Assembly (NCBI RefSeq): GCF_002924445.1
Contig: NZ_PIGG01000011.1
Coordinates: forward strand, 1-33,162
DNA from: Minwuia thermotolerans
GTDB taxonomy: Bacteria > Pseudomonadota > Alphaproteobacteria > Minwuiales > Minwuiaceae
DNA length: 33,162 nucleotides
Direction of reading: 5' to 3'
Positions 8,826-25,390 of this stretch are shown piece after piece. Position 1 is the first letter of the stretch. Each line of letters opens with the position of its first letter. Made by a program: the position numbers and the translations under genes. The notes beneath the pieces are model-generated. The model saw only the letters and a program-made list of their open reading frames with translations, did not search any database and was not told the DNA's origin.

Positions 8826-9222
8826 AGAACGAGAAATCGTCGTTGCATATACGGGTGGGCGTTTTGCAATCGTGCCCGGTCTCAACATCCGTTATCTCAG
8901 GGTCAGAGCATTCGCTCCGGTCCAAATCGTAGTACATTGTCCGACGTGCCGACTGCCCGATCTTGAAGTTAAGCAGTCTGATATCAGTGCGCGCCGCCTT
9001 GTTTGCCGTCTGCCCATTGATGGCGGGCACAATTGACAGCAGTTCTATGGGCTCTTGCAGGTTGTTCACCACCTCGAACTCGACATGGCATATCCCGCGG
9101 CTCCCGTCGTAGCGCGCCCCAACGGCTTCTACAGAGATATCCTCGCTCTCAAAGCACGCGGCCACGCTCAGCGGCAACAGACCGCCAACCACCAGACGGC
9201 GGATCGACTTCGCCGCCCTCAT
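8824..9222 (-). CDS. Putative lipoprotein
   Basis: A 132-residue exported protein with a lipoprotein signal: basic start, hydrophobic core and lipobox 'LSVAAC' with Cys23 as the lipidated residue. The mature part is small, probably all-beta, and has several Cys residues ('RGICHVEF', 'RSECSDPE', 'GHDCKTPTRICND') that could form disulfides in the periplasm. The start codon overlaps the stop of the upstream lipoprotein gene by four bases (9219-9222), so the two are coupled. No family is recognised. Being upstream of TraG-like genes it could belong to the transfer apparatus or be an entry-exclusion-type factor; that is only a guess. Confidence 0.65.
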   Translation of the reverse strand: MRAAKSIRRLVVGGLLPLSVAACFESEDISVEAVGARYDGSRGICHVEFEVVNNLQEPIELLSIVPAINGQTANKAARTDIRLLNFKIGQSARRTMYYDLDRSECSDPEITDVETGHDCKTPTRICNDDFSF

Positions 9223-9896
9223 CGCGCTTCAATCCGCGTGAGCTCGAAGTCCGACCCCGGCGAATTGGAATCGGAACGGGTCGGCCGCTGCACGAACTTT
9301 ACGGTAGCACCCACCTCGGGCGACACATAAGAAATCATCTCCCGCCACTTCGTGCGGCAGACCACCTTGTAGGTGTCATAGGTGCCGGCGTGCGTGGTGA
9401 CGCGGGCCTGCCCTTCGACCTCGCAGGTGCGATCGGCCGTCCAGTCGTTGCCGCCGGCCGTATGGCCCGTGCCCTCGTAGGAGACCGTCTTGCCGACTTC
9501 CAGCGGCCAGATATCGCCCGACTTGCTCGTCACGGTCGTGGTGCCGCTGGAATTGCAGTTTTCCCAGCTCACTTCCGGACCGAACCTGAGGCCGATACCT
9601 GCATCCATCGTCCAGGTGCAACCGTCCGTATCGCGCTGCCACGTATAGCGATCACCGTTGACGGCGATCAGCGTGTTCCGAACCTGCTCGCCGTTCCGGA
9701 CGCCGTGGAACACGGTTCCCTCGGCATAGGGCGCCGGCTCCGCCATCGTTGCGAGCGACTCGGCGACGGCCGCTTCCTCGACTTGCGTCGTCTGGCAAGC
9801 CGCCAACGCGAGGCCCGCAAATGCGAGGCCGATCACGTTCCCAGACAGTGCTTGTCGAGGTCGCTTCGTCTCTGATGTCCTCCCGGTCTTCGGCAT
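9219..9896 (-). CDS. Putative lipoprotein
   Basis: A 225-residue lipoprotein: lipobox 'LALAAC' with Cys34 after a rather long charged start ('MPKTGRTSETKRPRQ'). The mature part is rich in Gly, Thr and Trp and looks like repeated beta strands ('GDRYTWQRDTDGCTWTM', 'GTYDTYKVVCRTKWREMISYVSPEVG'). The ending, 'TYDTYKVVC...YVSPEVGATVKF', resembles the pattern of periplasmic proteins of unknown function. I chose ATG 9896 because the signal sequence begins there; a longer frame to 9986 adds a Cys-rich, non-signal extension. It is the first gene of a coupled pair. Confidence 0.65.
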   Translation of the reverse strand: MPKTGRTSETKRPRQALSGNVIGLAFAGLALAACQTTQVEEAAVAESLATMAEPAPYAEGTVFHGVRNGEQVRNTLIAVNGDRYTWQRDTDGCTWTMDAGIGLRFGPEVSWENCNSSGTTTVTSKSGDIWPLEVGKTVSYEGTGHTAGGNDWTADRTCEVEGQARVTTHAGTYDTYKVVCRTKWREMISYVSPEVGATVKFVQRPTRSDSNSPGSDFELTRIEAR

Positions 9897-10021
9897 CCTC
9901 AGTCTCCCAGTGAGTAAGTCGCGATGATCAAAAGCACAGAGACAGCAGGCGGAATCCGACCCGCTTGCGCACGCTGCGCTTCGCATTCAACTCCCAGTTT
10001 TCCGGATAGGAGCCGGCGATG

Positions 10022-10041
10022 CGTCACCCTATGGGGTGACG
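10022..10041. other. Perfect inverted repeat after luxR-type gene
   Basis: An 8-bp perfect stem, CGTCACCC with GGGTGACG, around a TATG loop, lies just after the stop codon of the regulator gene on the minus strand. There is no T run, so it is either a weak transcript-stabilising hairpin or a binding site for a dimeric regulator. Confidence 0.45.
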
Positions 10042-10042
10042 T

Positions 10043-11158
10043 TCAAAGCGTGGAAACCAGCCTCGCCAACTCGGCCTGGGTCGCGATATTCAATTTTTCG
10101 AAAATACGCTTGCGATGGGTTTTGAGCGTGTTCGGGGAAATGCTCAAACTATCGCAGATATCCTGGGGGCGTTCCGCATCCCCGAGTCGTACCGCGATGA
10201 TCGCCTCTGCCTCTGTCAGTTGATACACAGAACAAAGGCTTGCCCGGCGACGCTCTATATCATCCGGCGCCATCTCGAAGTCCGTAACAACGACAAGCAC
10301 GCTTGGCCGTTCCTTGGTTATGAGACGTGACTGCCCGATGAGTGGCACGACCTTTACCATATACGGCCGGCCATAGACCTCACTCTCGACCGGTAGGGTT
10401 GCGCCTGGATAGACGGAATCGCCGAACGAAGCCCGCGCCGCTTCACGAATGGCTACCTTAAGCTTCCTGTCCTCGCGGTCCTTCGCACAGCGGATCGTTC
10501 GGTTTTCCACGAAGATCGCGGCTCGTCGACGCGCGATCACCCGCGCCCTCTTGTTCGCGAACAGAATTTCCTGCTCCCGGTTAAGCAGAAATATCCCATA
10601 GGGCGTCCGTTCAATCGCGTCGAGCGCTGCATCCGCCTTGATACGCGCCTGGTCGACGAGTTCACCAATTTCAACGGCCCGCTGAATGTGAGGGCTTATC
10701 AAGCCCAGGAGCTTCATATCTTCCGGCTGCGCATGGCCGCTCTTACGGTCACGTTGCGCCGTCACAATTCCCGAGTATCTCTCGTCAAATTTGAATGTCG
10801 TTGCCAGATAATATCTGGCGCCGCCCATTTTCTGAAGCCAGTCATAATACTCATTTCTATCAATTTCTTCTTCAGGTGTGTGTGCATAATTATAATAAAA
10901 GCGCTCGTTGGGATTCCGCACATAGTGGGCAATCCCGGGATCCTTCTGGACATAGTAGCTTGAATAGTCTTTCAGAATATCATCCGGAATACCGATGGAG
11001 CGGTTTACCGGTATCAGCTCCGCCGCGTGATCGAGGACAAACACGTTGAAGCCGACGGCGCCCGTGACGTCGCAAACGTCTCGAAGTGCGCCATCCCAAC
11101 CCTCTTCATCAAGCGTGGTCGCATAGATCGAGTTTATGGCGTGTAGGATATGCTCCAT
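10043..11158 (-). CDS. LuxR-family transcriptional regulator
   Basis: A 371-residue regulator. The C-terminal 60 residues form a LuxR-type helix-turn-helix ('LTEAEAIIAVRLGDAERPQDICDSL', 'SISPNTLKTHRKRIFEKLNI'). A PAS-like segment precedes it ('AIERTPYGIFLLNREQEILFANKRA'). The N-terminal half ('LHAINSIYATTLDEEGWDGAL', 'NERFYYNYAHTPEEEIDRNEYY') resembles the sensory parts of many such proteobacterial regulators. It has no receiver domain and no clear autoinducer-binding domain. GAGGTGA stands directly before ATG 11158. It is transcribed toward the lipoprotein genes and away from the short recombinase. Its targets cannot be told; element transfer genes are possible. Confidence 0.85.
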   Translation of the reverse strand: MEHILHAINSIYATTLDEEGWDGALRDVCDVTGAVGFNVFVLDHAAELIPVNRSIGIPDDILKDYSSYYVQKDPGIAHYVRNPNERFYYNYAHTPEEEIDRNEYYDWLQKMGGARYYLATTFKFDERYSGIVTAQRDRKSGHAQPEDMKLLGLISPHIQRAVEIGELVDQARIKADAALDAIERTPYGIFLLNREQEILFANKRARVIARRRAAIFVENRTIRCAKDREDRKLKVAIREAARASFGDSVYPGATLPVESEVYGRPYMVKVVPLIGQSRLITKERPSVLVVVTDFEMAPDDIERRRASLCSVYQLTEAEAIIAVRLGDAERPQDICDSLSISPNTLKTHRKRIFEKLNIATQAELARLVSTL

Positions 11159-11565
11159 TCACCTCGTATTCGGCTCCTTCCGAACCCCCTCAGCTACAAG
11201 CTGCCCAGCAAGCATTGTGTTCCCCTCGATCATTTGAGCGGGAAGACTGCGCGATGTCCACCGTCGAACCAGGCCGGTAGCGCTCAGGCTTTGCAGCACC
11301 CACGTCCACCAATTTTCTTGTCTGCCGTTGGCCACCGCGGGAAGCCTCATGAACCAGCCCCATCGCCCATCGTATGGGTGCTCCGAAGGCGCCCGTCGTG
11401 GCCGATTTCCCGAACAGTTGTGTTGCGCGCCAGCCACAGGGCGACTTGCGAACTGAGTGACAGAATGCAGGAAAGTGTCACCCGGGGGGTCTCCGTGCGT
11501 TACGATTCACACTGTGAAATCAACACGTAAGGAGGAACCCCGCCTTCGAGAGCATCGGAAACCCA
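11159..11565. other. Intergenic region with inverted repeats
   Basis: This stretch lies between the divergent regulator and short-recombinase genes. It holds GTGACA...TGTCAC (11457-11482, 13-base spacer region) and the near-palindrome TTCACACTGTGAA (11506-11518), plus a GGAGG at 11531-11535 that is too far from the recombinase ATG at 11566 to serve it well. The inverted repeats could be recombinase core sites or operators. A minus-strand open frame (11159-11437) ends at the base before the regulator start but is unconvincing. Confidence 0.4.
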
Positions 11566-12138
11566 ATGGCCAACTGGAGCCTCTATGACGACGCCGGCCA
11601 CCGTAAATATCTCAGCATCAAGGAGCGCACCGGCTTCATCCACGCGGCCCGCAAGGAGCCCGCGGAGGTGGCCGCGTTTTGCCTGACCGTGGCTTATACC
11701 GGCTGCCGTCTCTCGGAGGCGCTGAACCTCACGCGCGACCGGGTAGATCTGGTCGAACGGGTGGTGGTGCTGGAAACGCTCAAGAAGCGCCGGCACGGGG
11801 TATACCGGGCTGTACCGATTCCCTCGGCCATGTCACGCCGGCTCGGCAACCTGCTGCGCAAACTGCCGCCGGATCAGGCACTTCTCTGGCCCTGGTGCCG
11901 GATGACCGGCTATCGGCGGATCAAGGCGGTGATGGAGCGCGGCGGCATAGAAGGTCCGTACGCCAGCCCCAAGGGATTGCGGCACGCCTTCGCAATCTCC
12001 GCTCTGGAGAAGGGCGTGCCCCTGAACCTGGTCCAGAAGTGGCTCGGGCACTCGGACATCGCGACGACCGCGATCTACGGGAATGCCGTCGGATTGGAGG
12101 AACGGGAAATAGCCAGCCGCATGTGGGGAAGAGATTAA
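11566..12138 (+). CDS. Short tyrosine recombinase
   Basis: A 190-residue tyrosine recombinase that consists almost only of the catalytic domain; the core-binding N-terminal domain of about 90 residues is missing or reduced. Visible residues are Arg in 'YTGCRLSEALNL', the Lys-rich turn 'LKKRRHGVYR', 'PKGLRHAFAISALEKGVPLNLVQ', 'WLGHSDIATT' and Tyr in 'AIYGNAV'. Where most relatives have His three residues before the second Arg (HxxR), this protein has Lys ('KGLR'). Short recombinases with this PKGLRH pattern are known from plasmids and islands, so this is probably not decay. No in-frame start exists upstream within about 30 codons. It sits at the edge of the defence block and may act on that block; this is inference. 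Confidence 0.82.
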   Translation: MANWSLYDDAGHRKYLSIKERTGFIHAARKEPAEVAAFCLTVAYTGCRLSEALNLTRDRVDLVERVVVLETLKKRRHGVYRAVPIPSAMSRRLGNLLRKLPPDQALLWPWCRMTGYRRIKAVMERGGIEGPYASPKGLRHAFAISALEKGVPLNLVQKWLGHSDIATTAIYGNAVGLEEREIASRMWGRD

Positions 12139-12323
12139 CGCCGAAACCCGCAAGAATTGGGGGTTGACCTTGTTACATTATCCTGCATTTCGTTACTCAG
12201 CGCACATTATCTTCAAATCTTATAGAGTTACAGTGGTTTCTACCTCTCAAGGCTGCGCGTCGTCACAGCCGTATGACAACAAATACACCGAAATATAAGC
12301 GGGGTTAGCTATTCTGTGCTAAT

Positions 12324-13838
12324 CTACACATCAAAAATAGGGCTTGGATTTTCTCTGGAAAGAACGAGCGTGAGAGACCGCTTTGCCCGGCTAATAGCGA
12401 CGTATAGTCTGCATCGCGAGTAGTATGTCGAAGAGAACCGACTGTCGCAGGGCAGGATCATCGCATTGTCGCATTCCAGCCCTTTAGCCTTGTGAATGGT
12501 ACTTATCGCCCGCGCCGGCGGCGTCGGACGGGTAAAGGCGCGCCGCCTGTTGATTTCCGCGAGGCCGTCGTGCGCGTCCACAAACTCCCCCAGCCGAATC
12601 GCGTCTTGGTACTCTCTTCGATAGTCAATACTGACCGTTTCAAAGCCGGAAACGCCTTCCCGCTGAAGCCGGGACAGCTCAGCAAGACATTTTGCGATCC
12701 CGACATGGTTCGGCTCCTCAAGAATGAAGCGGCCGAGCTGCTGGATACGCGCGGGCTTGCCACGGGCTGCACTCGTGCAGCCTTCACCTACCTCCCGGAC
12801 AAGTCGGTCGCCGTGGCTCGACCGGCTGAAGCCGACTGCAACGCGTCCCATGAACGCGACCACGGCGTTTGCCACAGCCACGGCGTCGCCCGCGCTCTCT
12901 TCCGTAGCAGTTATGAGCTCGTCAACGGCCGGGCGGGTGTGGCCTTCCCATATCGGTATGGCGCGATTCCAGAAGGCCGCGAGCGCTTCCGTCATATCGT
13001 TCTGCGGCGTGAGGATGAGCGCCTGCGTCCCGGCGCGTGCCACCCTGTCGATGGGCGCACGCTCTGCGCTATCCAAACGATAGCCACGTCCGACGGCAGT
13101 GTTGTCCGCGTGAAGAATATTCAACCCTTGTGGAAGTGCGCCTGTCAAATCGATAGGCTGACCGTTCTTCAGGGCATCCCGCGCACGCAACACCCAGGCG
13201 CCCAGGGCAGGCGTTCCATCGCTCCATCGATGCGGCGTGCATAGCTCAGCGAAGGCTGCGGCCGCCTTGATCTCTTCCCAGCGCGCCAGCGCCTCGTTTG
13301 CCGCCCGGCCCTTTGCGTAAATCCCCTGCATCGGGTCGCCAAAGATGCGCAGCTTCGTCCCCGCATTCCGCAAAGCCATAACAACGGCATGCTGATCCGC
13401 GCTCGCGTCCTGATGCTCATCGGCGATGACCACCGGAAACCGCTCCGCCACGGCAGCGACTATGAAAGGGTGCCGCCCCACGAGCGTCGCGACACGCGCG
13501 GCCAGCGCAGCGTAGCCGTCGGCACCTTGCCGCCGCGCCCATGCGGACGGATCGGCAGGCAAGTCGAGAGACTTGTGGTAGGCAGCGGCGATTTGCACAA
13601 GGAGGGAGTCGATTGTCCTGATTTCAACGCGGCGGTGGGCGGCAGCCGTCGCCTGTGCGAACGCGGCGCAGGCGGCGTGGGTATGCGTAAGGATCAGAAC
13701 CCGGCCGGTTGCAAGGCGCGGGGCCGTCCGCGCGGCATAGTGCGCGCCCTGATACGTCTTGCCGCACCCGGCAGGCGCCTCGACCGCGACGAACGGCACA
13801 TCGGAATCGAGCAGGGCGGCAACTTCTTCATCCGTCAT
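12324..13838 (-). CDS. UvrD/Rep-like helicase, GajB-like
   Basis: A 504-residue superfamily 1 helicase-like protein. Motifs: Walker A 'APAGCGKT' (residues 21-28), motif II 'DEHQD' (140-144), motif III 'FGDPMQ' near 160, motif V 'HKAKGLE' (449-455) and motif VI 'YVAISRAK' (479-486). The length matches GajB of Gabija (about 500 residues), which works with an OLD-family nuclease encoded just upstream, exactly the arrangement here. The start ATG 13838 overlaps the upstream OLD gene by 11 bases, so the two are coupled; a longer frame upstream overlaps that gene much more and looks like chance. It is the last gene of the minus-strand defence series, followed by an AT-rich gap and no strong terminator. 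Confidence 0.87.
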   Translation of the reverse strand: MTDEEVAALLDSDVPFVAVEAPAGCGKTYQGAHYAARTAPRLATGRVLILTHTHAACAAFAQATAAAHRRVEIRTIDSLLVQIAAAYHKSLDLPADPSAWARRQGADGYAALAARVATLVGRHPFIVAAVAERFPVVIADEHQDASADQHAVVMALRNAGTKLRIFGDPMQGIYAKGRAANEALARWEEIKAAAAFAELCTPHRWSDGTPALGAWVLRARDALKNGQPIDLTGALPQGLNILHADNTAVGRGYRLDSAERAPIDRVARAGTQALILTPQNDMTEALAAFWNRAIPIWEGHTRPAVDELITATEESAGDAVAVANAVVAFMGRVAVGFSRSSHGDRLVREVGEGCTSAARGKPARIQQLGRFILEEPNHVGIAKCLAELSRLQREGVSGFETVSIDYRREYQDAIRLGEFVDAHDGLAEINRRRAFTRPTPPARAISTIHKAKGLECDNAMILPCDSRFSSTYYSRCRLYVAISRAKRSLTLVLSRENPSPIFDV

Positions 13839-15603
13839 GAGGAACGTCAGAGATCGCGGCCTGTCCCAGCGCGGCGCGGACGGCATTGAGAAACGGCAAG
13901 AGGTCTGGCTTGACCGAGGGCCAGACACCAAGCACAAACATCTTCTCGGCGAGTTCGCGTCCGCCTACGACGAATTTGAACCAGCGCCTTCCGTGACGGC
14001 CCCACATCTTCGCGGTTTCGTCGTCGGGCGCGCCTTCCTTGCTGCCGATGGCGGCGGCGATCATGAGGGCGCGAAAATCCTCCGTGGCTGTCCTGATGGC
14101 AGGCAGGCTCTTGTTGTCGATGCCGAGCCGCATGGCGAGTGTCACGCGGCGTTCCGCAGCCACGCCCGCGTCGGGATGGGCGATCAGCTCTTCAAGCCGG
14201 CTTTCATCCACGAGGGACATGATCCGTTCCTCGGTGCAGCCGCCCGCCCATTGAAAGAGACGGTCTCCCATCTTCGCCTTTAGTTCAGTCCATCGGCCAG
14301 AAGACTGGCCTTCGTCATCGGCGAAACCGCCGAAAAGCAGACCGCCGTCGGCCATGGCTTCCAGAAGATCCAGGGTGGCGGGATTGCCTTGCCCGTCGCA
14401 AACGCGCACGCCGTGATCCGCAAAGGCGCCGTCAACGGCACGCTCCAGAACGTACGAGAGGAAGCCCACCTCGGTCGGACCTTCGGCAATAATGGCAAAT
14501 CTGGACAGGAAGGTTTCAGGGTCGCGCTCTTGCTGTCGGGCGATCTTTTCACGCAGAAGCGGGCCGATATGACCGCTGCCGTCAAGATACCAGAGGCTGG
14601 CCTGGTCGGCGGCGTTTATCGCCACGGCGCTGTGCGTCGTTACGAAGCTCTGCGCCGGTTCTGCCTGCAAACTCTTTACGAGCTTCCGCAACCGGTAGGG
14701 TTCAAGGCCGCGCTCTATTTCATCGATGGCAGTGATACTGGTTTCCGCCTCGCCGGCGGCAGCAATTTGCAGCGCGGTCATTCGCCGCGTTCCCGCGCCC
14801 CAGCTCGCAAGCGGAAGAGAAACGCCGTGCGCACTTTCGGCCATAAGCCCAATCAGCGCGCCGATGGAAAGCCCTTGGCTGCTCGTCAGCCCGAGATCGA
14901 GTTTGCTCGGCAGCGCCTCATTCTTGAGCGTTCCATCAAGCTTGCCGAGAGCTTCCTTGGCGCTGTCGCCAAGATTGGCGGCCAGATTGATTTCCGATAC
15001 GCGCCGCCCAATCCTGGCCCGCAGGCCCTTGTCGGCAAGCAACCGGTCGAGTGCGGAGCCGTAGACCAGCCTGAGATCGCGGTCGTTGCGGTCGTCGCCA
15101 CCAAGGCGAACGACGCCGATATTCCGCCGCACGGCTGCGGACAGGTGATCGATGTCGTCGTTGGGCTGCACAATCTCCCAATTTATTTCGAGATCGGGTG
15201 TGCCGCGCACCTGAAGGCGATAGACAGGCGGGCCGGAAGCGGCCCGGCCGCTCTCTTCATCGTCCTCGGTGATCGGACGCACGGCGTCGTTGCCGTCCCA
15301 TTCCCAGGGCCAGGCGAACCTTTGCTGCTGACCTATCTCGGAAGATGGCGGGAGCGCGACGACCGCCTGTATTACGAATTCATCTTCGACCTTGCGCTGC
15401 CAGAAATCAGCCTCCGAAAGAACGAGTGCATTGGAGGGGCTGAGCAAAAGGGCGATTGCTTCGAGGATCGTGCTCTTCCCCACATCGCCGCCGCCGAGCA
15501 CGATGTTCATGCCGGGGGCCGGATTCCAGTCCAGAGCCTCGATACCGCGAAACCGGTCAATCTTCAGTTTGAGGATCGTTGCGGTCGCGCTTATGCCCGT
15601 CAT
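13828..15603 (-). CDS. OLD-family ATPase-nuclease, GajA-like
   Basis: A 591-residue OLD protein: an ABC-type ATPase followed by a TOPRIM nuclease. Walker A 'GGGDVGKST' lies at 37-45, the signature region 'ASWGAGTRRMT' near 266, Walker B 'AIDEIERGLE' at 291-300 and the switch 'TTHS' at 321-324. The TOPRIM part has 'EGPTE' at 373-377 and 'DDE' at 428-430. Length, domain order and the overlapping UvrD-like gene downstream match class 2 OLD proteins, that is GajA, which nicks phage DNA when nucleotide pools fall. It differs from plain Gabija in that a second OLD-type gene ends 13 bases upstream. All key acidic residues are seen, so activity is likely. Confidence 0.87.
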   Translation of the reverse strand: MTGISATATILKLKIDRFRGIEALDWNPAPGMNIVLGGGDVGKSTILEAIALLLSPSNALVLSEADFWQRKVEDEFVIQAVVALPPSSEIGQQQRFAWPWEWDGNDAVRPITEDDEESGRAASGPPVYRLQVRGTPDLEINWEIVQPNDDIDHLSAAVRRNIGVVRLGGDDRNDRDLRLVYGSALDRLLADKGLRARIGRRVSEINLAANLGDSAKEALGKLDGTLKNEALPSKLDLGLTSSQGLSIGALIGLMAESAHGVSLPLASWGAGTRRMTALQIAAAGEAETSITAIDEIERGLEPYRLRKLVKSLQAEPAQSFVTTHSAVAINAADQASLWYLDGSGHIGPLLREKIARQQERDPETFLSRFAIIAEGPTEVGFLSYVLERAVDGAFADHGVRVCDGQGNPATLDLLEAMADGGLLFGGFADDEGQSSGRWTELKAKMGDRLFQWAGGCTEERIMSLVDESRLEELIAHPDAGVAAERRVTLAMRLGIDNKSLPAIRTATEDFRALMIAAAIGSKEGAPDDETAKMWGRHGRRWFKFVVGGRELAEKMFVLGVWPSVKPDLLPFLNAVRAALGQAAISDVPHDG

Positions 15604-15616
15604 GTCGCCCTAGCCG

Positions 15617-17710
15617 TCATCCTGCGCATTTCGGGAAGCGCTCATTGATCGCCGCAAACAGAGCGGCAGCGCGGTCCAGAACCTCGTCGGGCAGCTTCGT
15701 TGCGTTCTCCCCCCAATCCGAAACAAGGTGAATGGCGGCCGACGCCTTCCACCCGTCCGGAAGCTCAACGTTTCGGCGCACCGCCCACGCCTTGATCTGG
15801 CTTGGCAGGCTGCCCGCGGCACGGTCGGCGGTCGTCAGTTTTACGGTCTGCCCGAGAACGGCGCTAACGCCTGGAAGCACGATATCTTCGCCGAGTATAT
15901 CTTCGACCTCGGTCTCGGTCCCGGCGCGGTCTAACGTGTCGTCGAGCATGAGGATCGCCGCTCCGTGGGCGGCATAGAGTTCCTTGATCAGAGCATCGCG
16001 GCGCGCGCGCCCGGCGTCGTCACCATCGAGCAGAACGAGCGGTCGAACCTCCTGTCCAAGAAACAGCGAGGCGATATGGCCGACGTTTTTGGTGCCGCCG
16101 CAGGGAGTAATGTAGATATCATCGGACAGCGCCTCCCGACCGGACGCGCGGCACTGCGCCCGGAGGGCGTGCAGGTAGTAGTAATCGCTCATACCCTCGA
16201 CCAGCACATTGTCCCTGTGCTGGAAAAGGCCGCGCACCATGGCGTAACCCGCCGCTGCCTGAAGCGGGAAGATGGTTTCGCGGTCCTTCGGCCAGGTCTC
16301 GACACTGATCCGGGAGTGCCCGCTTTCATCTTCGGTAACGGGCCGAACGCGATGAAGATGTTCGCCGTCAATCAGGAACGGCGAATGCGTCGTATAGACG
16401 AGTTGGTTGTTCTCTGACAGCCGCTCAAAAAACGCGATCAGCTCCTGCTGAGCGGTGGGATGCAAATGGAGCCCCGGCTCGTCCAGCAAAAGAATGGCGT
16501 CCTTATACCCCTCCTCGGACTCGACGAGAAAAACGAGGTAGAATGAGAAAAACCACTGGAACCCCCTGCTGCGCCCTTCCAGTTCGATCTTGACGCCAGG
16601 CCGCCGATCGTCCGCGATCCAGATGCGGAAATAGTCGCCATCGGCCTGATAATCGACCGTATGCCGTCGTTGGCCGTACCATTTGTTGAAGCGTTCAGTG
16701 ATATCGAGGGAAGCGGAGCTGAGTTTAATCGCCCGCGCTTCCTTGCGTTCCTGATCCTGGCGGATCACGGCATCTTCGGGTTTCTTGTTTTGAGAGCGCG
16801 CCTCTTGCGCTTGCTCGCGGCCGAGGTCGGCAATCTCCTTCGCCGTCAGCCGGACGTGCTTGAACATGGCGTTGATAGTGCGAACGTGAGCGTCGTCCGG
16901 CGCGCGTTCAAGGTCTTCAAGAAAGCGCGGCAGATAGATCGCGCTGTCGAGAACACCGTAATCCTCGAAATAAATCAAGACGGGCAGGCGCTCTTTCAGC
17001 CACGCCTCGGCCTGTTCGGCTGGTGCGGGCCTCTGTGCCGCCTCAAGAACGGGGTCCACCGCCGCTTGCAGCGTCTCGACAGGGTCGGCCGTTTGCGGCT
17101 TCGCATGTCCTTCCGACTCTTTGCGCAAGGCCGAGAGCAGCTTCACGCCATCATCGCCGCGAAGGTCGGCATGCGAACTAATCTTCTGTTCCCATTTCGA
17201 GGCCCACGTCGCCAGCGCGGTACGCAGCTCCTGGGTCGCCTCTTCCTGATCCGCCGCAGGCGATTCAAGGCGCCGGGCGGCTGACGCGAATTTCTTGAGC
17301 GCGGCTACGACAGGATCGGGCACGACCACGTGGTCAGAAATCTCCGGATCAAATTCGACCGTCAGTGAGCCGTCGTAATAGCGTGTGCAGACTGCCTCAC
17401 TCGGCGCCTGGCGGTCGTCGAGCAGTGTCTGCAGTTCATCGCGTAACGCCCCGGCGATCTCAAATGCCACGGAGCAAACCGGCCAATCGCTGCCGTCCTT
17501 GAAATCGCGGGTATATCGATCGCGCGGAAATTCACGCTGAGGATTGTACGGCGCCGGTGTCGCGGGGTTGAACTTGTGGAAGGCCTTAAGCATCGCCGTC
17601 TTGCCGGACTCATTCCGCCCGACGAGGGCGGTAACGCGCTCAAGAGGAACCCAGCCGCTGTCATCAATGTTGCGGAAGTTCTGAACACGGATGCGTCTGG
17701 CTTTGAGCAT
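15617..17710 (-). CDS. OLD-like ATPase with TOPRIM domain
   Basis: A 697-residue protein of the same general plan as the next gene but only distantly related to it. Walker A 'GRNESGKT' (31-38), a long helical middle (residues about 140-340), signature-like 'GRSRGFQWFF' (379-388), Walker B 'LLLDEPGLHLHP' (407-418), switch 'THSPF' (441-445), then a TOPRIM module with 'VEGMSD' (504-509) and 'LLDGDDAGR' (560-568). The TOPRIM motif reads EG-x-S-D rather than EG-x-T-E. The start ATG 17710 follows a strong GGAGGGG; longer frames upstream overlap the nuclease gene. Such proteins are overcoming-lysogenization-defect-type nucleases in phage defence. Its partner could be the upstream nuclease, or the GajA-like protein. 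Confidence 0.85.
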   Translation of the reverse strand: MLKARRIRVQNFRNIDDSGWVPLERVTALVGRNESGKTAMLKAFHKFNPATPAPYNPQREFPRDRYTRDFKDGSDWPVCSVAFEIAGALRDELQTLLDDRQAPSEAVCTRYYDGSLTVEFDPEISDHVVVPDPVVAALKKFASAARRLESPAADQEEATQELRTALATWASKWEQKISSHADLRGDDGVKLLSALRKESEGHAKPQTADPVETLQAAVDPVLEAAQRPAPAEQAEAWLKERLPVLIYFEDYGVLDSAIYLPRFLEDLERAPDDAHVRTINAMFKHVRLTAKEIADLGREQAQEARSQNKKPEDAVIRQDQERKEARAIKLSSASLDITERFNKWYGQRRHTVDYQADGDYFRIWIADDRRPGVKIELEGRSRGFQWFFSFYLVFLVESEEGYKDAILLLDEPGLHLHPTAQQELIAFFERLSENNQLVYTTHSPFLIDGEHLHRVRPVTEDESGHSRISVETWPKDRETIFPLQAAAGYAMVRGLFQHRDNVLVEGMSDYYYLHALRAQCRASGREALSDDIYITPCGGTKNVGHIASLFLGQEVRPLVLLDGDDAGRARRDALIKELYAAHGAAILMLDDTLDRAGTETEVEDILGEDIVLPGVSAVLGQTVKLTTADRAAGSLPSQIKAWAVRRNVELPDGWKASAAIHLVSDWGENATKLPDEVLDRAAALFAAINERFPKCAG

Positions 17711-17729
17711 TATCCCCTCCGATCTCGTG

Positions 17730-18545
17730 CTACTCGCTGACTTCTCCGCTTTCGTCATCCTCGCCGTCATCCGGTAACACCAGTTCGTTCTGCGCCTTGT
17801 TTTGTCCATGAAGCGAAACCGGGTCCGTGGGATCACCCTCAGCTCGGTAGACCTTGAAGACATGCTCGCAGCCCGCATTCGGGTTTGGCACCTGCGTCGT
17901 CGCGAGTTGGTTTGTGCGCAGATCGAAGCTGTAGGCGACAATCATCTGATCGACCTCGCGCCGTGTGATTTCCCCGATTTCGATGAGCCCTGCATCGACG
18001 GGATGATCGGCCGGAAGAATCAGCGTGCGGTGATGCGCCGTGCCATCCACGAGAGCGAACGGCGTGGGCAAGACATACATCTTGCGGTCCCGGACAAGAA
18101 TATCGCCATACGTGCCAAACCCGCGGAAGCTCTTGTTCTTGTGTACGTAGTCGTTGTCGGCATTGAGAAAGCTACCATGGCAAAGAACGAGATCGAGCAC
18201 AGGATACTTGTTGCCATCCGGGTCTTTCGGATAGCGGCCGAAGACATAGTAGACCTGCCGCCCGTTGTGCTCCCCGCAGGGAACCTGACTATTAGAATCG
18301 TAGCTGGCCTCGCGGCCCGGATAGGCGAGCCCTTTGAGCTCATAGCCCTCCGGGGAATGGACCATCCGGAAATCAGGATAGGTGTTACGGCCCGGCAGAT
18401 CGTAATGTAGCTGCATGCCGTCGAGGCGCCGCTTGAACCAATTCTGAAAGTGAAACTCCTTGTCGGTACGCCCTTCCCGCTCAATTAACTGACCGTCACG
18501 TATAGCCTCAACACACAGTTTGAAGATGGCAGTTACATTCGTCAC
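17730..18545 (-). CDS. PD-(D/E)XK restriction endonuclease-like protein
   Basis: A 271-residue protein with a clear PD-(D/E)XK nuclease pattern: Glu30 in an N-terminal helix ('RTDKEFHFQNWFKRR'), Pro57-Asp58 in 'NTYPDFRMV' and Glu69-Leu70-Lys71 in 'EGYELKGL'. The following 'YDSNSQVPCGEHNGRQVYYVFG' is also typical of type II restriction enzymes. Start GTG at 18545. It begins 2 bases after the methyltransferase stop and ends 19 bases before the OLD-like gene start, so the four are surely one operon. With the methyltransferase it would make a restriction-modification pair. The recognition sequence is unknown. The tail is acidic ('PDDGEDDESGEVSE'). Confidence 0.8.
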   Translation of the reverse strand: MTNVTAIFKLCVEAIRDGQLIEREGRTDKEFHFQNWFKRRLDGMQLHYDLPGRNTYPDFRMVHSPEGYELKGLAYPGREASYDSNSQVPCGEHNGRQVYYVFGRYPKDPDGNKYPVLDLVLCHGSFLNADNDYVHKNKSFRGFGTYGDILVRDRKMYVLPTPFALVDGTAHHRTLILPADHPVDAGLIEIGEITRREVDQMIVAYSFDLRTNQLATTQVPNPNAGCEHVFKVYRAEGDPTDPVSLHGQNKAQNELVLPDDGEDDESGEVSE

Positions 18546-18547
18546 GA

Positions 18548-20800
18548 TTAGTCTCGCTCCGCATTTGTGCTGATCTCTTTGCTGCCGGCAGCATGCAACT
18601 CCGCAATAAGCGCCTCAATCTCACCGTTTGCGTTATCCAGCGAGGAGAGGGCCGCGTCCATCTCATGCGAAATAGAAAGCTGTCGAAGCAATTGTGCCAT
18701 GACGATGACGCGCACGTCGTTGCGGCTCAGACGGCGCCCGGAGCCGCGAAGGCGCTGAACCTGCTCGGCAGCGACCGGCGAAATAGTGCCCCACAAATCG
18801 CCGTTCCAGCGATGCGGTGTCAGCTGCGTGCGCTTCCGGCAGACGATGATTATGTCCAGGTCGATCGGTTCCCGCGCCTGATGCTTGGGCATGGCGACCG
18901 ACATTTCAGACTTTATTGGGTGCGCCGCCGTTATTCCAAAACCGGCCTCCATCAGTGCCTTGAGGACGGCGTGCCATCCTTCCGGGCGTGAGTGGTGGTA
19001 GGTGAACGCGAGAATCCCATCGTCATTGAGGACGCGGTACGCCTCCGTCCACACGGCGCGCAGGCGATCTGTGAAAGCACCTACATCGGCGTTCTGAACT
19101 TCGTCCTCACTGCGAGTCGTGTCGGCTTGCCAGTGCCCGTTGGCGCCAAGTATGTGCCGCTGCCACACGTGGAAAAAATCGGCGAGCTGGGAGTAGTGAA
19201 CGTTATCGAAGAACGGCGGGTCAGTAATGATCGCATCCACCACGCCATCCGGCAGATCGGTAGCGCTCGAATCGCCACAGGACAGATAGACGCGCTTACC
19301 TTCGGCGAAGGCAGAATAGCTCTCAGCCACAGGAAACCCGATCTTCTCGGAGAGGCCGAAAACTTTTTCATTGCCCTTGCGGCCGGGAGCCGGCAATCGA
19401 ATCTCGAAAGGGTCGTCGGCGTAATCGAGGGCGCGCCTGATCCTGCCTTCAAACATGGTCGAGAATGCACCTGAACTCTTCGGAGTGCCCCACAGGTTGG
19501 CTTCCAGCGGCACGCGTTCGGGCTTGAGAATGTGATGGGCAAACATGTGCCGGACGGCGCCAGTCCCCTCGCCCTTGTAGGAGGCGAACATATTGTTGAA
19601 CTCAAGCGTGCCAGAGAGCAGGCAGGTGAACAGCTCGCGCAGAATCGGGTCTTCGATCTGCCTGATCCTGTCCGCCAGGACAGAAAGGCAAAGGAGTTGA
19701 CGCTCGTTGAACATCTCGTGCCAGTGCCGGTAATTGTAACCGAGCGCCTGGTTCGTGTTGTAGCCGGGCTCTATCGCAGCGACCGGATATGGGTTTTTGC
19801 GATTCCTCAGCGCCTTCTGCGCTTCGCCGTAGAGCGCCCGGTCCTCATCAGTTGCTGGCATGTACGCTTTGCTGCCCTCCGGCATAAGGACGAGCTTTGC
19901 ATAGAGCCGGTGTTCTGGCGGACGGCCGGTTTCGCGGATCGTCTTGGCAATTGGGAAAATGTGGGAACATTCCGGACAACTCGCCTTTTGCCCATTGGCC
20001 GGACCGGCCTGCGGGTCGAAAGTGGCGTAGCATGTACCGCAATGCGCTTCCCGGGCGTCATTGCGCACTTCGTTGATTGCACCGCAAGTGGGGCAGACCG
20101 CCTTGGCCTCGGGATATCGCTTCGGGTAAGCGTGCCGCGCGAAGATGTATGACGAAAACAAATCCACTGCCGTGTCGCACGCCGGACAATCGACCGTTTT
20201 CACCCAAAAATAATAGAGAACGTCAACTTCTCTGCCATCGGGCAGAGTCGCGCTGTAATACCGGCGAACCTGGTCAGCCACGTCACGTTCAATAGCCCGG
20301 TAAGTTTCGAGGATAGCTGGGCGGTCGTGAACCGCAAGCGCGTTCCTGACGAGGAAGTGGGCGACCGGATTAATGTCGCGTCCGATGGCGCGCGCTCCAA
20401 GCTTAGCGGTTTCGCCAATAGTCGTACCGCTGCCCATAAACGGATCAAAAACTACAGCATCCTTGATGCGAACAGGCTTGTAGAACAGGTCGAGCATGTC
20501 GGTGCCGGATGGCGCAAAGGCACCGAGAACTATGGCACGAAAGACTGTGCCAAGGCGCTGCGCCCACCACTTATGGATGTGATAAAGAGGTCGATTAATT
20601 TCTTTGCGCCAACTCTCGATCTGGGCAATGTCGCTCAACGCCTCAAAAGGGAAGGCCATGTCTTCAAGAGCACGCGGGCCGGGCGCTACGACGAGCGGGA
20701 TCGTCACCGATTCGGGGCTCTGCAAAGGTAATGGCAGTGCGTCTAAGCCTTTCGGATCATCCCATTGCGATCGGGCTCCCGAACCCGCAGTTACACGCAT
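18548..20800 (-). CDS. DNA methyltransferase, DUF1156-like type
   Basis: A 750-residue SAM-dependent DNA methyltransferase, probably of adenine N6. The SAM-binding motif 'DPFMGSGTT' (119-127) precedes the catalytic 'DPPF' (527-530), an alpha-type order with a very long insert between. The insert carries four CxxC pairs (Cys205/208, 236/239, 254/257, 275/278), likely two zinc sites. The 'INRPLYHIHKWWAQRLGTVFRAI' segment (69-91) matches the conserved start of DUF1156-related methylases. ATG 20800 has GGAAAGG nine bases upstream; an alternative start at 20659 ('MAFPFEALSD') would give 703 residues and begins where relatives usually do. In the cluster it should protect host DNA from the nuclease encoded next. 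Confidence 0.85.
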   Translation of the reverse strand: MRVTAGSGARSQWDDPKGLDALPLPLQSPESVTIPLVVAPGPRALEDMAFPFEALSDIAQIESWRKEINRPLYHIHKWWAQRLGTVFRAIVLGAFAPSGTDMLDLFYKPVRIKDAVVFDPFMGSGTTIGETAKLGARAIGRDINPVAHFLVRNALAVHDRPAILETYRAIERDVADQVRRYYSATLPDGREVDVLYYFWVKTVDCPACDTAVDLFSSYIFARHAYPKRYPEAKAVCPTCGAINEVRNDAREAHCGTCYATFDPQAGPANGQKASCPECSHIFPIAKTIRETGRPPEHRLYAKLVLMPEGSKAYMPATDEDRALYGEAQKALRNRKNPYPVAAIEPGYNTNQALGYNYRHWHEMFNERQLLCLSVLADRIRQIEDPILRELFTCLLSGTLEFNNMFASYKGEGTGAVRHMFAHHILKPERVPLEANLWGTPKSSGAFSTMFEGRIRRALDYADDPFEIRLPAPGRKGNEKVFGLSEKIGFPVAESYSAFAEGKRVYLSCGDSSATDLPDGVVDAIITDPPFFDNVHYSQLADFFHVWQRHILGANGHWQADTTRSEDEVQNADVGAFTDRLRAVWTEAYRVLNDDGILAFTYHHSRPEGWHAVLKALMEAGFGITAAHPIKSEMSVAMPKHQAREPIDLDIIIVCRKRTQLTPHRWNGDLWGTISPVAAEQVQRLRGSGRRLSRNDVRVIVMAQLLRQLSISHEMDAALSSLDNANGEIEALIAELHAAGSKEISTNAERD

Positions 20801-20891
20801 GTCCGACTACCTTTCCGGGCATGCCGAAGGTACGACCACAGTCGATACTGATGGTCTTGATCTAGAAGCAGCATTTCCCTCGGAGCCATGT

Positions 20892-21080
20892 TCACTTTCG
20901 GTCGCTTCCCTTAAACTTGAGCATGAGTTGCTGCCCTTCGTGTTTGTCTAAAAACTCCTGCAACGCATACCGCACCACATATTGGAGCGACAGTGGCGGC
21001 CGGTGAGACTGAGCAATATGGCGTAGAGCCTCATACTCCTCTCGCTCAACGGATACCGAGAAGCGCTTCATCTCCGTCAT
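20892..21080 (-). CDS. Ribbon-helix-helix DNA-binding protein
   Basis: A 62-residue protein with the Arc/CopG ribbon-helix-helix pattern: beta strand 'KRFSVSVER', helix 'EEYEALRHIAQSH' and helix 'SLQYVVRYALQEFLDKHEGQ'. It lies 91 bases ahead of the methyltransferase on the same strand. Such proteins act as dimers, usually as repressors of their own operon, so it is a candidate controller of the defence genes. TAGGG stands upstream of ATG 21080. Three copies of GGC(N)ACACAA lie just upstream and are candidate binding sites. The fold is well supported; the role is inferred. Confidence 0.72.
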   Translation of the reverse strand: MTEMKRFSVSVEREEYEALRHIAQSHRPPLSLQYVVRYALQEFLDKHEGQQLMLKFKGSDRK

Positions 21081-21230: not shown

Positions 21231-21803
21231 CTAGGTACTCTCGAACGCAGCCGACGCCTTCACCACCCGGCTGATTGTCGCCGGATGCACGTCGAAGACC
21301 CGAGCCATCTGACTGGCGGTGCGTCGGCCCGAGCGAACGGCCTCGATTGCCTCGCGCTGCTGTTCGGCGGTCAACTTCGGCCGGCGGCCGCCTACTCTGC
21401 CTTCCTTGCGGGCGCGTTCGAGGCCGGCCCGTGTCCGCTCGCGAATCATCTCACGCTCGAATTCGGCGAAGGAGCCGAGCATCTGCATGAGCATACGGCC
21501 GCCGGGCGACGTCGTATCGATCGACTCTGTCAGGGACCGGAAGCCGGCGCCGGCCGCATCGAGCTTTTCCATGATGAACAGGAGATCGCGCAATGAGCGG
21601 GAGAGCCGGTCCAACTTCCAGACGACAACCACGTCGCCCGCCCGCAGATAGTCCAGGAGCTTTTGGAGCTCCGGCCGATCCCATCGGCCGCCGGAGGCGG
21701 CTTCCTGATAGATCGTCTCACATCCCGCCTCCCGAAGGGCGGTCACCTGAGCCGTAGTATTCTGATCGTCGGATTTGGAAACGCGAGCATACCCAATGAG
21801 CAC
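21231..21803 (-). CDS. Serine resolvase/invertase
   Basis: A 190-residue serine recombinase of the Tn3 resolvase/invertase type. It shows the catalytic Ser in 'GYARVSKSD', 'WKLDRLSRSLRDL', 'GGRMLMQMLGSFAEFEREMI', and a C-terminal helix-turn-helix ('SGRRTASQMARVFDVHPATIS'). Length and motifs are complete, so it should be active. The start is GTG at 21803; no strong Shine-Dalgarno sequence is seen. No Tn3-type transposase is next to it, so it is a stand-alone recombinase, either for multimer resolution or DNA inversion. Its target sites probably lie in the 21804-21935 gap, which contains TTGCA...TGCAA repeats and the palindrome CGGGGCCCCG at 21868-21877. Confidence 0.9.
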   Translation of the reverse strand: MLIGYARVSKSDDQNTTAQVTALREAGCETIYQEAASGGRWDRPELQKLLDYLRAGDVVVVWKLDRLSRSLRDLLFIMEKLDAAGAGFRSLTESIDTTSPGGRMLMQMLGSFAEFEREMIRERTRAGLERARKEGRVGGRRPKLTAEQQREAIEAVRSGRRTASQMARVFDVHPATISRVVKASAAFEST

Positions 21804-21935: not shown

Positions 21936-23930
21936 TCAATCCAGCCGAGGCGGTTTGGGCAGCCCGTCCTCCGTCAATTCGTATTCCGGGGCGGCCTCGC
22001 TCTTGGGTTCGGGCTTGGCCGTTTTTTCATTCTGCCCCTGACCCCCTTCTTCGCTGAGCGCCGGTTCCGTTTCGGCCGGTTCTTCCGGCTCCTCCGGCAC
22101 CTGCTTGCGCATGGCCTCGTTCTGGGTTTTGAGCTCTTCGAGCGTCAAACCGTCGATCGGCCACGGTTCCCGTTCCCGCACAGGCACGTCGCCCAAGCGT
22201 GCTTTCGCATTGGCCACCATCTTCTTGGCGCTTTCGCTCTCGTCCCAGAACATCGGCATACGCGCACGGATCGGTTTGTGCCCCTGAAACCGCAGAATCA
22301 CGTCATCGCGGAAGGCGCCACCGATCAGCTCGTTCGGCGCGGCCAGCGGCGTTCGATTGCCCCACAGGTCCGGATGCTCGCCCAGCAGATCGGAGATGTA
22401 CTGCGCCGTGCCGAGATCGTTGGGCCGGAAAAACATCTGCGCCCTGGAGTTGGCGATCAACGTCTCCCAGCGGGGATAGACATTACGGAGTTGGGAGAGG
22501 TCCTGCGCCAGGAGCCACAGGCGGATATTCGCACCACGGGCAATTGAGATCGCATCCTCAACGATCCGCATGTAGCCGAGCTGGGGCAGCTCATCGAACA
22601 GAAACAGAAACGGCCACTGCCCCTCCGGCGTCGCTGGAGACTGGTTGCCCCGCGCCTCCCGTTCGACGTAGCGACGATGCGCCATCACCCCTTGCAGCAT
22701 CATGCCGAGCACCACCCGCAAAACCGAGCTGTACATGTCGATTTGCTCGGCCGGCACCACAACGAACACCGTATGAGCGTCTCCGGTGATCGCCGTATTG
22801 TCGTCTTCGAGCCAGAAGCCCGGCTTGTCCTCGACGCCCTGCGAATACATCCACCAGCGCATGTGGTCGTCGCCGGCGATCGTATGCGGATGGAGGCCGT
22901 GGCTGGTGCCGCGGGTCGCCCGCATCACCTTGGGGGAGCGCCAGATTTCAAGCTGCGTGCGCAGCGTATGCGTGATCGACGTGCGCATGCTCTCATGCAC
23001 ATCGAGCAGCGTGGCGCCAAGCTCGCGCAGCCGCTCTTCATCGCTGTCCTTGAGTTTTTGGATCAGCGCATCCCGCCGATCCTCGTCGAGATGGAGAAGG
23101 CGCGTCACCTCCCGGATATTCCGCTGGCGCGGCGGATAGGTGTGATAGACGTAGAAGATCAGCGCGGTGACCAGATCTTTCGCCGTGTTGTCCCAGAACG
23201 GCTCCTTCCCCATGGGCACGATCAGCAGCTCGGCAAGCTGGCGCGCGTTGTCCCAGATCACGTCCGCATCCTCGTCGGGCAGCGGCGTCAGCATGTCCAT
23301 CGGATTGAAGCAATCCGTATCCGGGTCCTCGGGCGCGAACTTGAAGACCTTGCCGTACCAGTCGCGCCGCCATGCCGTCTTCCGGTACAGTTCGCCCTTC
23401 GGATCGAAGACGACCGTCGGCCCTTCGTAGTTATAGAGGTTGCGCAGAATGAAGGCTTGGCCCTTACCCGCGCCGGTCGGGGCCACGGTCAGCAAATGCC
23501 CATCGCCCGAAAAGACCACCGGTGCGAATGATTGCTCTCCCTTGCGGCTGAGTTCCGCCGGAATTGGGAAATTGCCGATATGAAGCATGTCCATGCGCTC
23601 GTCCGTCCGGCCACGGCACATGGGCGTCTCCCGAAACTCCAGGAACGTCATCCAGGCTTCGGACTTGCCCAGGTCCTTGATGCGCGCCTGCCATGCGGGA
23701 TCGAGCTTCGGCAGGATCACGTTCTGCAGCACCCGCTCCAGTTCGCCCTTGTCGCGCTGAATGATCTTCTGCCGCAGGAGCATCTTCGACGTGCGATCCA
23801 CCGGCATGTCGTGGATCAGGTCCAGCAAGGCCCGCATCGGGGCCTCTAGACCTTGGCGGAAGTTCTCGGCTTCCTCTGCCTCTTGCCGTCTTTTGTTGCC
23901 GCCGCCCCCAAACAACTTGCCGAACACCAT
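21936..23930 (-). CDS. VirD4/TraG-type coupling protein
   Basis: A 664-residue type IV secretion coupling ATPase that would feed relaxase-bound DNA to a transfer channel. Walker A 'APTGAGKGQ' (150-158) has the GKG form common in VirD4 proteins; 'TVVFDPKGELYRKTA' and Walker B 'FLFLFDELPQLGYM' follow, and 'LLAQDLSQLRNVYP' matches the family motif after Walker B. The N-terminal 150 residues are charged and helical, without any obvious membrane segment, unlike classical VirD4. The C-terminal 80 residues are acidic and Pro-rich. ATG 23930 follows GGGAGAGAG. Longer frames upstream run into the divergent leader of the ArdC gene and look like chance. No relaxase or VirB-type genes are visible nearby, so they lie outside the window or are supplied elsewhere. 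Confidence 0.88.
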   Translation of the reverse strand: MVFGKLFGGGGNKRRQEAEEAENFRQGLEAPMRALLDLIHDMPVDRTSKMLLRQKIIQRDKGELERVLQNVILPKLDPAWQARIKDLGKSEAWMTFLEFRETPMCRGRTDERMDMLHIGNFPIPAELSRKGEQSFAPVVFSGDGHLLTVAPTGAGKGQAFILRNLYNYEGPTVVFDPKGELYRKTAWRRDWYGKVFKFAPEDPDTDCFNPMDMLTPLPDEDADVIWDNARQLAELLIVPMGKEPFWDNTAKDLVTALIFYVYHTYPPRQRNIREVTRLLHLDEDRRDALIQKLKDSDEERLRELGATLLDVHESMRTSITHTLRTQLEIWRSPKVMRATRGTSHGLHPHTIAGDDHMRWWMYSQGVEDKPGFWLEDDNTAITGDAHTVFVVVPAEQIDMYSSVLRVVLGMMLQGVMAHRRYVEREARGNQSPATPEGQWPFLFLFDELPQLGYMRIVEDAISIARGANIRLWLLAQDLSQLRNVYPRWETLIANSRAQMFFRPNDLGTAQYISDLLGEHPDLWGNRTPLAAPNELIGGAFRDDVILRFQGHKPIRARMPMFWDESESAKKMVANAKARLGDVPVREREPWPIDGLTLEELKTQNEAMRKQVPEEPEEPAETEPALSEEGGQGQNEKTAKPEPKSEAAPEYELTEDGLPKPPRLD

Positions 23931-24463
23931 ATGCTCTCTCCCCCGCGTCGCCTCCAATTGCCAATACTGACGAAACCATAGCTGCCCCGATCCGGGATCG
24001 CCAGTTTCCGGCGGCTTGAGACAAGTCGAAAATCGCCCCGCACGGCGTTTCGGCGGGCGTCGATGTTGGTGGGCAAAACACCCACCGCGTAACGGCGGGC
24101 AAACACGTCCCGTCACGGCATCGCGCGGCTCCGGTTGGTCACGTCTGGCTGACGGCGGTGCCTTCGGCATCTTGGTCGGGTGTCGCATTTCCTTTCCAGC
24201 TTGAGCAGCACGACCGCAGGCCTTCCTCATGGGTGGCGTGCCTGGCAGGGACGCCGTACCCGGCAACGGGGCTGCGGGACTTTCTTCCCCGCGAGGCTTC
24301 GCCTGCTTCCTCGCGCCCGCTGCGCTCCAAGAAAGACCCGCTTCCCCGTCTCCCGCTTCGCTCCCGCCCGTCGGGTGCCGCGCCCGGCTTCACCCCTGCC
24401 TTTCCGGCAGCCATCGGAAGGCCGCGGCGGTCGCGGCCTCGCAAACCGGAAAGGAGCGAAGCC
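23931..24463. other. Divergent intergenic region
   Basis: This 533-base gap separates the coupling-protein and ArdC genes, which point away from each other. Several open frames cross it, but none shows a domain. It must hold both promoters; I see no clear sigma-70 boxes in this GC-rich DNA. The last 65 bases contain the nested stem-loops described separately. Confidence 0.4.
24399..24456 (+). promoter_or_regulatory. Nested hairpin leader of ardC-like gene
   Basis: An outer perfect 9-bp stem pairs CCTTTCCGG (24399-24407) with CCGGAAAGG (24446-24454). An inner perfect 8-bp stem pairs AGGCCGCG (24419-24426) with CGCGGCCT (24432-24439). The 3' arm of the outer stem contains most of the Shine-Dalgarno sequence AAGGAG (24451-24456) of the gene starting at 24464, so the fold would hide the ribosome binding site. 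Confidence 0.6.
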
Positions 24464-25390
24464 ATGACGACCAAGAGCAAAAAGCCCGACGTCTACACCC
24501 AGGTGACCAACAACATCATCGCCGCCATCGAGGCCGGCGCCGGCGACTGGCAGATGCCCTGGCACCGCAGTGGCGAGGGCCTCAACCGCCCCACCAACAT
24601 CGACACCGCCAACGCCTATCGCGGCGTGAACGTGGTCTCCCTCTGGGCCGCCGGCTACGCGAGGGGCTTCAGCACCGGGATCTGGGGCACGTACCGCCAG
24701 TGGCAGAAGAACGGTTGCCAGGTGCGCAAGGGCGAGAAGGCGAGCCTTGTGGTCTTCTATAAGGAGATCGAGATCGCCGACGACGAGCTGGAGAACGACG
24801 ACGGCAACTGGCAGACCGACAACAAGCGCCTCATCGCCAAGGCGTCCTGGGTCTTCAATGCGGACCAGGTGGACGGCTACGAGCCCGCGCCCCTGCCGGC
24901 GCCCGAGAATCCCGTCGAGCCCATCGACGCGGCGGAAGCCTTCGTCCGGGCGACCGGAGCGACCGTGAAGTACGGCGGCGAGCGCGCCTTCTACCGTCCC
25001 TCGGACGACATCATCCAAATGCCGGAGCGCGAGCGCTTCCTCGGCACCGAGACCAGCACGCCGACGGAAGGATTTTACAGCACCCTGCTCCATGAACTGA
25101 CCCACTGGAGTGGCGCCAAGCACCGCTGCAACCGGGAGTTCGGCAAGCGCTTCGGCGATCAGGCCTACGCCATGGAAGAGCTCGTGGCCGAACTTGGAGC
25201 GGCTTTCCTCTGCGCCGATCTGGGCATCAGCGTGACGCCGCGGCCGGACCACGCCGCCTACATCGAGAACTGGCTTCAGGTCCTCAAGGCCGACAAGAAG
25301 GCCATCTTCACCGCCGCCTCGAAGGCGGCTCAGGCCAGCGACTTCCTCGCTGGCCTTCAGGACCGGGCGCACACCGAGGCCGCCGCTTAG
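24464..25390 (+). CDS. ArdC-like antirestriction protein
   Basis: A 308-residue protein with an N-terminal DUF1738/ArdC single-strand DNA-binding part ('VYTQVTNNIIAAIEAGAGDWQ', 'RGVNVVSLWAAGYARGFS', 'WGTYRQWQKNGCQVRKGEKAS') and a C-terminal zincin-like metallopeptidase part with HELTH (210-214) and the downstream Glu region 'MEELVAELGAAFLCADLG'. In conjugative plasmids such proteins protect incoming single-stranded DNA from host restriction. ATG 24464 follows GGAAAGGAG. A 9-bp stem with no T run spans the stop codon (25376-25398). Its presence near the coupling protein fits a leading-region role in the new host. Longer in-frame extension upstream is GC-rich leader, not protein. Confidence 0.9.
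   Translation: MTTKSKKPDVYTQVTNNIIAAIEAGAGDWQMPWHRSGEGLNRPTNIDTANAYRGVNVVSLWAAGYARGFSTGIWGTYRQWQKNGCQVRKGEKASLVVFYKEIEIADDELENDDGNWQTDNKRLIAKASWVFNADQVDGYEPAPLPAPENPVEPIDAAEAFVRATGATVKYGGERAFYRPSDDIIQMPERERFLGTETSTPTEGFYSTLLHELTHWSGAKHRCNREFGKRFGDQAYAMEELVAELGAAFLCADLGISVTPRPDHAAYIENWLQVLKADKKAIFTAASKAAQASDFLAGLQDRAHTEAAA

Follow-up and report, generated by a model that had tools for sequence, protein, structure and literature searches.

Five large genes of Minwuia thermotolerans, encoded on one strand of contig NZ_PIGG01000011.1 within a window of 33,162 nucleotides (the whole stretch analysed) and here called g1 to g5, are best explained as three known anti-phage systems, each separable from the others, that are stacked on a mobile element and are probably co-transcribed, a reading to which we give a probability of about 0.85. 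The systems are a predicted two-gene restriction-modification (R-M) pair (g1-g2), a predicted single-gene OLD nuclease (g3) and a predicted Gabija (g4-g5), and we infer that they act in layers, which would make the block a layered defence island. The reading is carried by the gene content, by catalytic motifs that are intact in all three modules in alignments with relatives, by the finding of each module apart from the other two and by the recurrence of backup-type genes in the slot behind the R-M pair. It offers a clean case of known defences stacked modularly.

All five open reading frames (ORFs) were verified in the window (Table 1). The first-pass annotation of this DNA had described five one-strand genes of which three neighbouring pairs are separated by 2, 19 and 13 bases and one overlaps by 11, and these spacings hold given our choice of an ATG at 17710, behind GGAGGGG, as the start of g3 and of an ATG at 13838, overlapping g4, as the start of g5. 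Judged from the spacing, g1 to g5 probably lie on one transcript. Counts of promoter-like and terminator-like sequences were no higher than shuffled expectation, and the single sigma-70-like site found is inside g1. The upper end assigned to the block, 21080, is the start of a 62-amino-acid ORF upstream of g1.

Table 1. Positions and predicted identities of features in the window
Feature	Position	Strand	Description
g5	12324-13838	-	504 aa; GajB (UvrD-like helicase)
g4	13828-15603	-	591 aa; GajA (class 2 OLD ATPase-TOPRIM)
g3	15617-17710	-	697 aa; class 1 (single-gene) OLD ATPase-TOPRIM nuclease
g2	17730-18545	-	271 aa, GTG start; PD-(D/E)XK restriction endonuclease, EcoRV/HincII/SwaI-like fold
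g1	18548-20800	-	750 aa; DUF1156-like amino-methyltransferase with zinc ribbon, R-M modification enzyme
Small ORF	20892-21080	-	62 aa; ribbon-helix-helix-like by eye
Serine resolvase	21231-21803	-	directly upstream of block
Short tyrosine recombinase	11566-12138	+	190 aa; just downstream of block
Longer tyrosine recombinase	3587-4807	+	
TraG/VirD4-type coupling protein and ArdC-like antirestriction protein	21936-25390		
IS110-type transposases	309-1475 and 31950-33119	-	near both contig ends
DUF3644 protein	30312-31520	-	E 1.7e-58

The annotation had left two possibilities: that R-M and Gabija were brought together, or that the five proteins form one machine in which modification status licenses attack by the OLD and UvrD proteins. 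To find relatives of the R-M pair, a five-sequence g2 alignment was scanned against a genome collection (84,980 species) and the best 80 of 197 relatives were kept; these 80 genome contigs and two viral contigs make up 82 R-M loci (L011-L092). Homologues of g3, g4 and g5 (tblastn, E 1e-5) were found in 0 of the 82, and among the R-M plasmids only L003 has a g3-like gene. The conserved synteny of all five families that the annotation proposed to look for is absent from these 82 loci, from five Gabija loci and from six loci of close OLD relatives: in the loci examined homologues of g4 and g5 stand apart from g1-g3, and vice versa, and no other locus with all five genes was found. The synteny of these loci speaks against a single five-gene system, and g1-g5 look like neighbours, not one new machine, because the examined relatives carry the modules separately. 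Like the first-pass annotation, we can point to no named system that combines exactly these five genes, and no description of such a set appears among the titles and abstract openings of the literature matches listed. In draws of genomes made with differing E limits and too sparse for frequencies, g4-like genes occurred in 2 of 385 genomes of the class and 2 of 398 of the phylum, and g3-like genes in 6 and 3, respectively, the window's own genome included each time.

The proposal that the first two genes are an R-M pair is borne out by their co-occurrence, both being matched in 79 of the 82 loci and in all four g2-bearing plasmids, and by the catalytic motifs kept in both enzymes. In g1, Pfam finds N6_N4_Mtase (2.8e-14), with DUF1156 and a zinc ribbon each below its own cut-off; the DPF.GSG and DPP motifs are invariant in 35 of 35 aligned sequences, and the structure model (pLDDT 87.5) has a methyltransferase core, with Trm14 as its top VIA match (Z 18.2). 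A tRNA methyltransferase function, to which the best model matches (Trm14, Trm11) might point, was rejected; we read those matches as reflecting a core and a DPP motif held in common. For g2, searches of Pfam, PADLOC and NCBIfam gave no significant match, a profile search of the PDB gave one chance-level match (E 0.21), and Foldseek on its model gave nothing at E <= 0.001, the best entry being EcoRV at 0.02. The PD-(D/E)XK nuclease label that g2 had been given nevertheless stands, as residues D58, E69 and K71 are invariant in 67 of 67 aligned sequences and all 50 listed VIA entries for its AF2 model (pLDDT 83.2) are restriction enzymes, from Z 9.5 to 6.2 (the best 50 of 161 chains with Z at least 2). 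SwaI comes first (Z 9.5, 159 residues, 3.8 A), and HincII and EcoRV score 8.4 and 8.2, values modestly above background, given the VIA warning that searches lacking any clear match often reach a best Z of 7-8. We chose the inputs of these models ourselves (A5, 66 of 81 listed g2 homologues; A6, 34 of 75 g1 homologues). SwaI, HincII and EcoRV are blunt cutters, and by analogy it is a guess that g2 might be one too.

On these sequences and models, we assign g1-g2 to a predicted two-gene, type II-like R-M system whose two enzymes would share a putative target site. It resembles the type II systems of the EcoRV/HincII/SwaI fold group in its adjacent methyltransferase and endonuclease, its catalytic D..E-x-K and its VIA listing of restriction-enzyme folds only, and also in having a small upstream ORF in part of its relatives: the 62-amino-acid ORF, a probable regulator of the pair, is matched in 8 of 86 loci at about 41-54% identity (tblastn; L013, L015, L016, L017, L019, L020, L021 and L025). 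It differs from them in that g2 has no significant match in the three family libraries and in that g1 distantly resembles the DUF1156 enzymes of Hma/BREX-related systems. The pair thus appears to represent an under-annotated R-M family, with records titled with many phyla.

Among the 79 loci with both genes the nuclease comes first in 43 and the methyltransferase in 36, one of these being divergent. The three others are L083, which stops just behind g2; L072, in which g2 is shortened and g1 finds no match; and L092. In four loci (L036, L042, L049 and L052) the matched stretch of one gene has an in-frame stop. Gene calls in the loci examined for this study came from a simple ORF caller with unverified starts, which missed g2 as such in several, and the positions of g1 and g2 rest on tblastn. 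In nine genomes of the order g2 was found only in the window's own; near-identical DNA had no match in plasmids, and g1 has no match in phage records at E 1e-20. L092 is a 166-kb viral contig with a g2 homologue (9827-10723, 42% identical), next to ThyX-like and ribonucleotide-reductase-like genes (by eye) and with no g1 match within the 20.7 kb examined; it is perhaps an orphan restriction-type nuclease of a large phage.

The two OLD-type proteins of the block are indeed different, as first described: g3 is of class 1 and g4 is GajA. In g3 a single protein unites AAA_15 (Pfam, 1.7e-22) and OLD-like_TOPRIM (2.7e-6), six aligned relatives retain both Walker motifs (A and B) and those of TOPRIM, and among solved structures the closest is the class 1 OLD from Thermus scotoductus (6p74, E 4.8e-9). 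Its six close relatives (54-65% identity; L100 65%, L101 56%, L103-L106 54-63%) are single genes in two genomes and four viral contigs, and homologues of g1, g2, g4 and g5 were absent from the examined DNA around all six (a retron was not searched for). By its domains, g3 is a predicted class 1 (single-gene) OLD nuclease akin to P2 Old; that protein, a single OLD carried by a prophage, is the obvious comparison, drawn here by analogy, and the four viral contigs add to the likeness. The difference lies in its setting, since g3 is flanked by an R-M pair and a Gabija, whereas genes of class 1 OLD proteins are described (PMC10568477) as lying away from other candidate defence genes. At E 1e-20, 76 plasmid records match g3, at 25-38% identity among the matches listed, and the plasmid L010 has its g3 match without g1, g2, g4 or g5. 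Weaker matches at 31-38% occur in L097-L099, L108 and L109; the three viewed, L097-L099, lie in short loci. In L103 an endolysin-like gene (by eye) adjoins the g3 homologue.

For the last two genes the earlier assignment to Gabija (GajA-GajB) is upheld by PADLOC matches over most of their length, by their order and by the conservation of the pair. In g4 we find Pfam AAA_21 (5.2e-14, the OLD TOPRIM falling below cut-off) and PADLOC GajA (PDLC04168, E 1.6e-69, residues 9-556 of 591), and all six aligned sequences conserve both Walker motifs (A and B) and the acidic motifs of TOPRIM; in g5 we find Pfam UvrD (4.5e-12) and PADLOC GajB (PDLC04173, E 3.6e-59), and the four aligned sequences all conserve the P-loop and DEHQD. 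Three plasmids and two genomes hold relatives of g4 at 51-56% identity (L007, L008, L009, L102 and L110); a g5 homologue follows directly in all five, split in L009 and shortened ahead of a transposon gene in L007, and g1-g3 occur in none of the five loci. In nine plasmids a match to g4 at >= 44% identity spans nearly its full length; none of the nine is among the four g2-bearing records, and in viral contigs six pattern matches to g4 include no relative. With its ATPase-TOPRIM protein followed by a UvrD-like helicase, g4-g5 is thus a Gabija by gene content, with complex formation and anti-phage activity putative. It differs from the solved type in being diverged, as the sequence match of g5 to solved GajB (8sm3) is weak (E 5.6e-5) and no GajA is among the 16 PDB sequence hits of g4 at E <= 1, and in its place behind an R-M pair and a second OLD gene.

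A backup-type effector lies directly downstream of g1-g2 in 12 of 72 loci and upstream in 1 of 73 (Fisher p 0.001), a post hoc comparison: the downstream set was inspected first and the classes drawn from it, and related loci were counted separately. The sample comprises those of the 83 loci with both genes that gave a downstream (72) or upstream (73) gene of >= 180 amino acids within 1.5 kb, the rest being dropped, and the classes were scored with local hidden Markov models built from downstream members, which g3 and g4 supplemented in the OLD class. The PADLOC tallies, which are independent of these classes, cover 25 of 158 and 25 of 101 families. Downstream we find DUF262 proteins in five loci (L006, L026, L028, L082 and L091), AAA_13/PDC-S06 ATPases in four (L005, L019, L064 and L085) and OLD/GajA types in three (L003, L088 and L013). 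The gene after DUF262 has a HEPN domain, Pfam-confirmed in L082 and L091 and annotated in L006 (L026 and L028 were not checked). The single upstream match, a DUF262 gene, is in L037, the only one of the 79 with divergent g1 and g2; g1 is inverted there, so that the gene is actually behind g1. Upstream genes also include single defence matches (HmaA/DrmD-like, DndC, a type II methyltransferase and NsnA).

In L003, a Tomitella plasmid, the OLD-type gene behind the pair shares 41% identity with g3 over 220 residues. L013 is the most informative locus: its g1 and g2 match those of the window at 74% and 77% identity, and behind them (10934-14097) lie a GajA of another PADLOC type (PDLC00086) and a GajB, to both of which tblastn with g4 and g5 was blind. 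The bringing together of R-M and Gabija fits better than one machine; because the pair in L013 precedes a different Gabija, we infer that the juxtaposition seems to have arisen more than once, this R-M pair having apparently met a Gabija on at least two occasions.

Backup effectors of R-M and BREX-type systems are already published: PMC3710099 places the MAE_28990 HEPN in an operon with a ParB-type nuclease and a DNA methylase and proposes PrrC-like control, and PMC12839542 presents OLD-TOPRIM proteins as backup effectors of BREX. Our addition is that the two-gene R-M family of g1-g2 seems to have recruited backups too, its downstream slot being repeatedly filled by them. In both settings an abortive-type nuclease gene (PrrC, HEPN or OLD-TOPRIM in the published loci) stands behind a modification system, and similar effector classes recur behind g1-g2; the core here is a compact two-gene R-M rather than a type I R-M or BREX, and the likeness is one of gene content alone. 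We envision a scenario in which R-M is the constant module and the slot behind it takes backup effectors, two of which would have been acquired in succession in the window: g1 would methylate host sites and g2 cut unmodified incoming DNA, with the class 1 OLD nuclease g3 and Gabija as further layers.

Several points weigh against three merely stacked systems. The spacing is tight for unrelated modules, and the slot looks non-random (12 of 72 against 1 of 73, with another Gabija behind the pair in L013), so that a selected link between R-M and OLD-type nucleases is possible. Absence in tblastn can miss diverged OLD and Gabija genes, as it missed the Gabija of L013, and PADLOC covered the first downstream or upstream gene of >= 180 amino acids and a few chosen genes. 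Among plasmids, 1 of the 76 records with a g3 match and 3 of the 9 with a g4 relative were examined; L101 and L103 end close to the g3 homologue at contig ends, and the viral relatives L103/L104 and L105/L106 look like near-duplicate pairs.

The tight spacing on a single strand is also what would speak for an integrated five-protein machine, which we hold to be very improbable given that no second locus with all five genes was found, that g3-g5 are missing by tblastn from all 82 R-M loci and that the examined relatives of g3 and of g4-g5 live without g1-g2. The same independence bears on a PrrC-like arrangement, in which the R-M proteins would silence the OLD nuclease, and perhaps Gabija, until a phage that blocks or overloads R-M frees it and the cell is killed or arrested. 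The DUF262, AAA_13/PDC-S06 and OLD/GajA genes directly behind the pair speak for such guarding, and the proposed control of MAE_28990 and the backup role of OLD-TOPRIM in BREX lend it precedent; but the examined relatives of g3 and g4-g5 seem not to need an adjoining R-M, the effector classes differ from one another and imply no shared contact surface, and they were chosen after the data had been seen. We consider guarding of this kind unlikely, and favor separable systems.

It is doubtful, if conceivable, that the three modules were selected together because they guard one pathway; this is speculation. In such a cascade R-M would cut, and the resulting DNA ends would be degraded by the host's end-processing nuclease, here AddAB; a phage that blocked this nuclease to save its DNA would then trigger OLD and Gabija. 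P2 Old is reported to kill recBC-deficient cells (PMC10568477), and it has been proposed that Gabija receives its licence from phage proteins that shield DNA ends from RecBCD (PMC12407980). The host genome has an AddA of alphaproteobacterial type above the family cut-off and no RecB above its own. With AddAB in the role of RecBCD, R-M, OLD and Gabija would guard successive steps of the pathway, which, if true, would help to explain why OLD-type nucleases land beside restriction systems.

The surroundings of the block are those of a mobile element. Relatives of its upstream serine resolvase, 44-52% identical, occur in 8 of the 86 R-M loci (L003, L005, L006, L037, L078, L082, L085 and L088), in L005 overlapping the start of the nuclease gene; their presence is a hint to the way in which such cassettes move. 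Equal-scoring copies of the IS110-type transposases sit on other contigs of the genome, so that repeats may be where the contig breaks. The element bears an antirestriction protein (ArdC-like) alongside restriction. A partly low-GC minus-strand region at 5359-9986, with a 973-amino-acid ORF (DUF6861 below cut-off) followed by smaller ORFs, looks toxin-immunity-like by eye.

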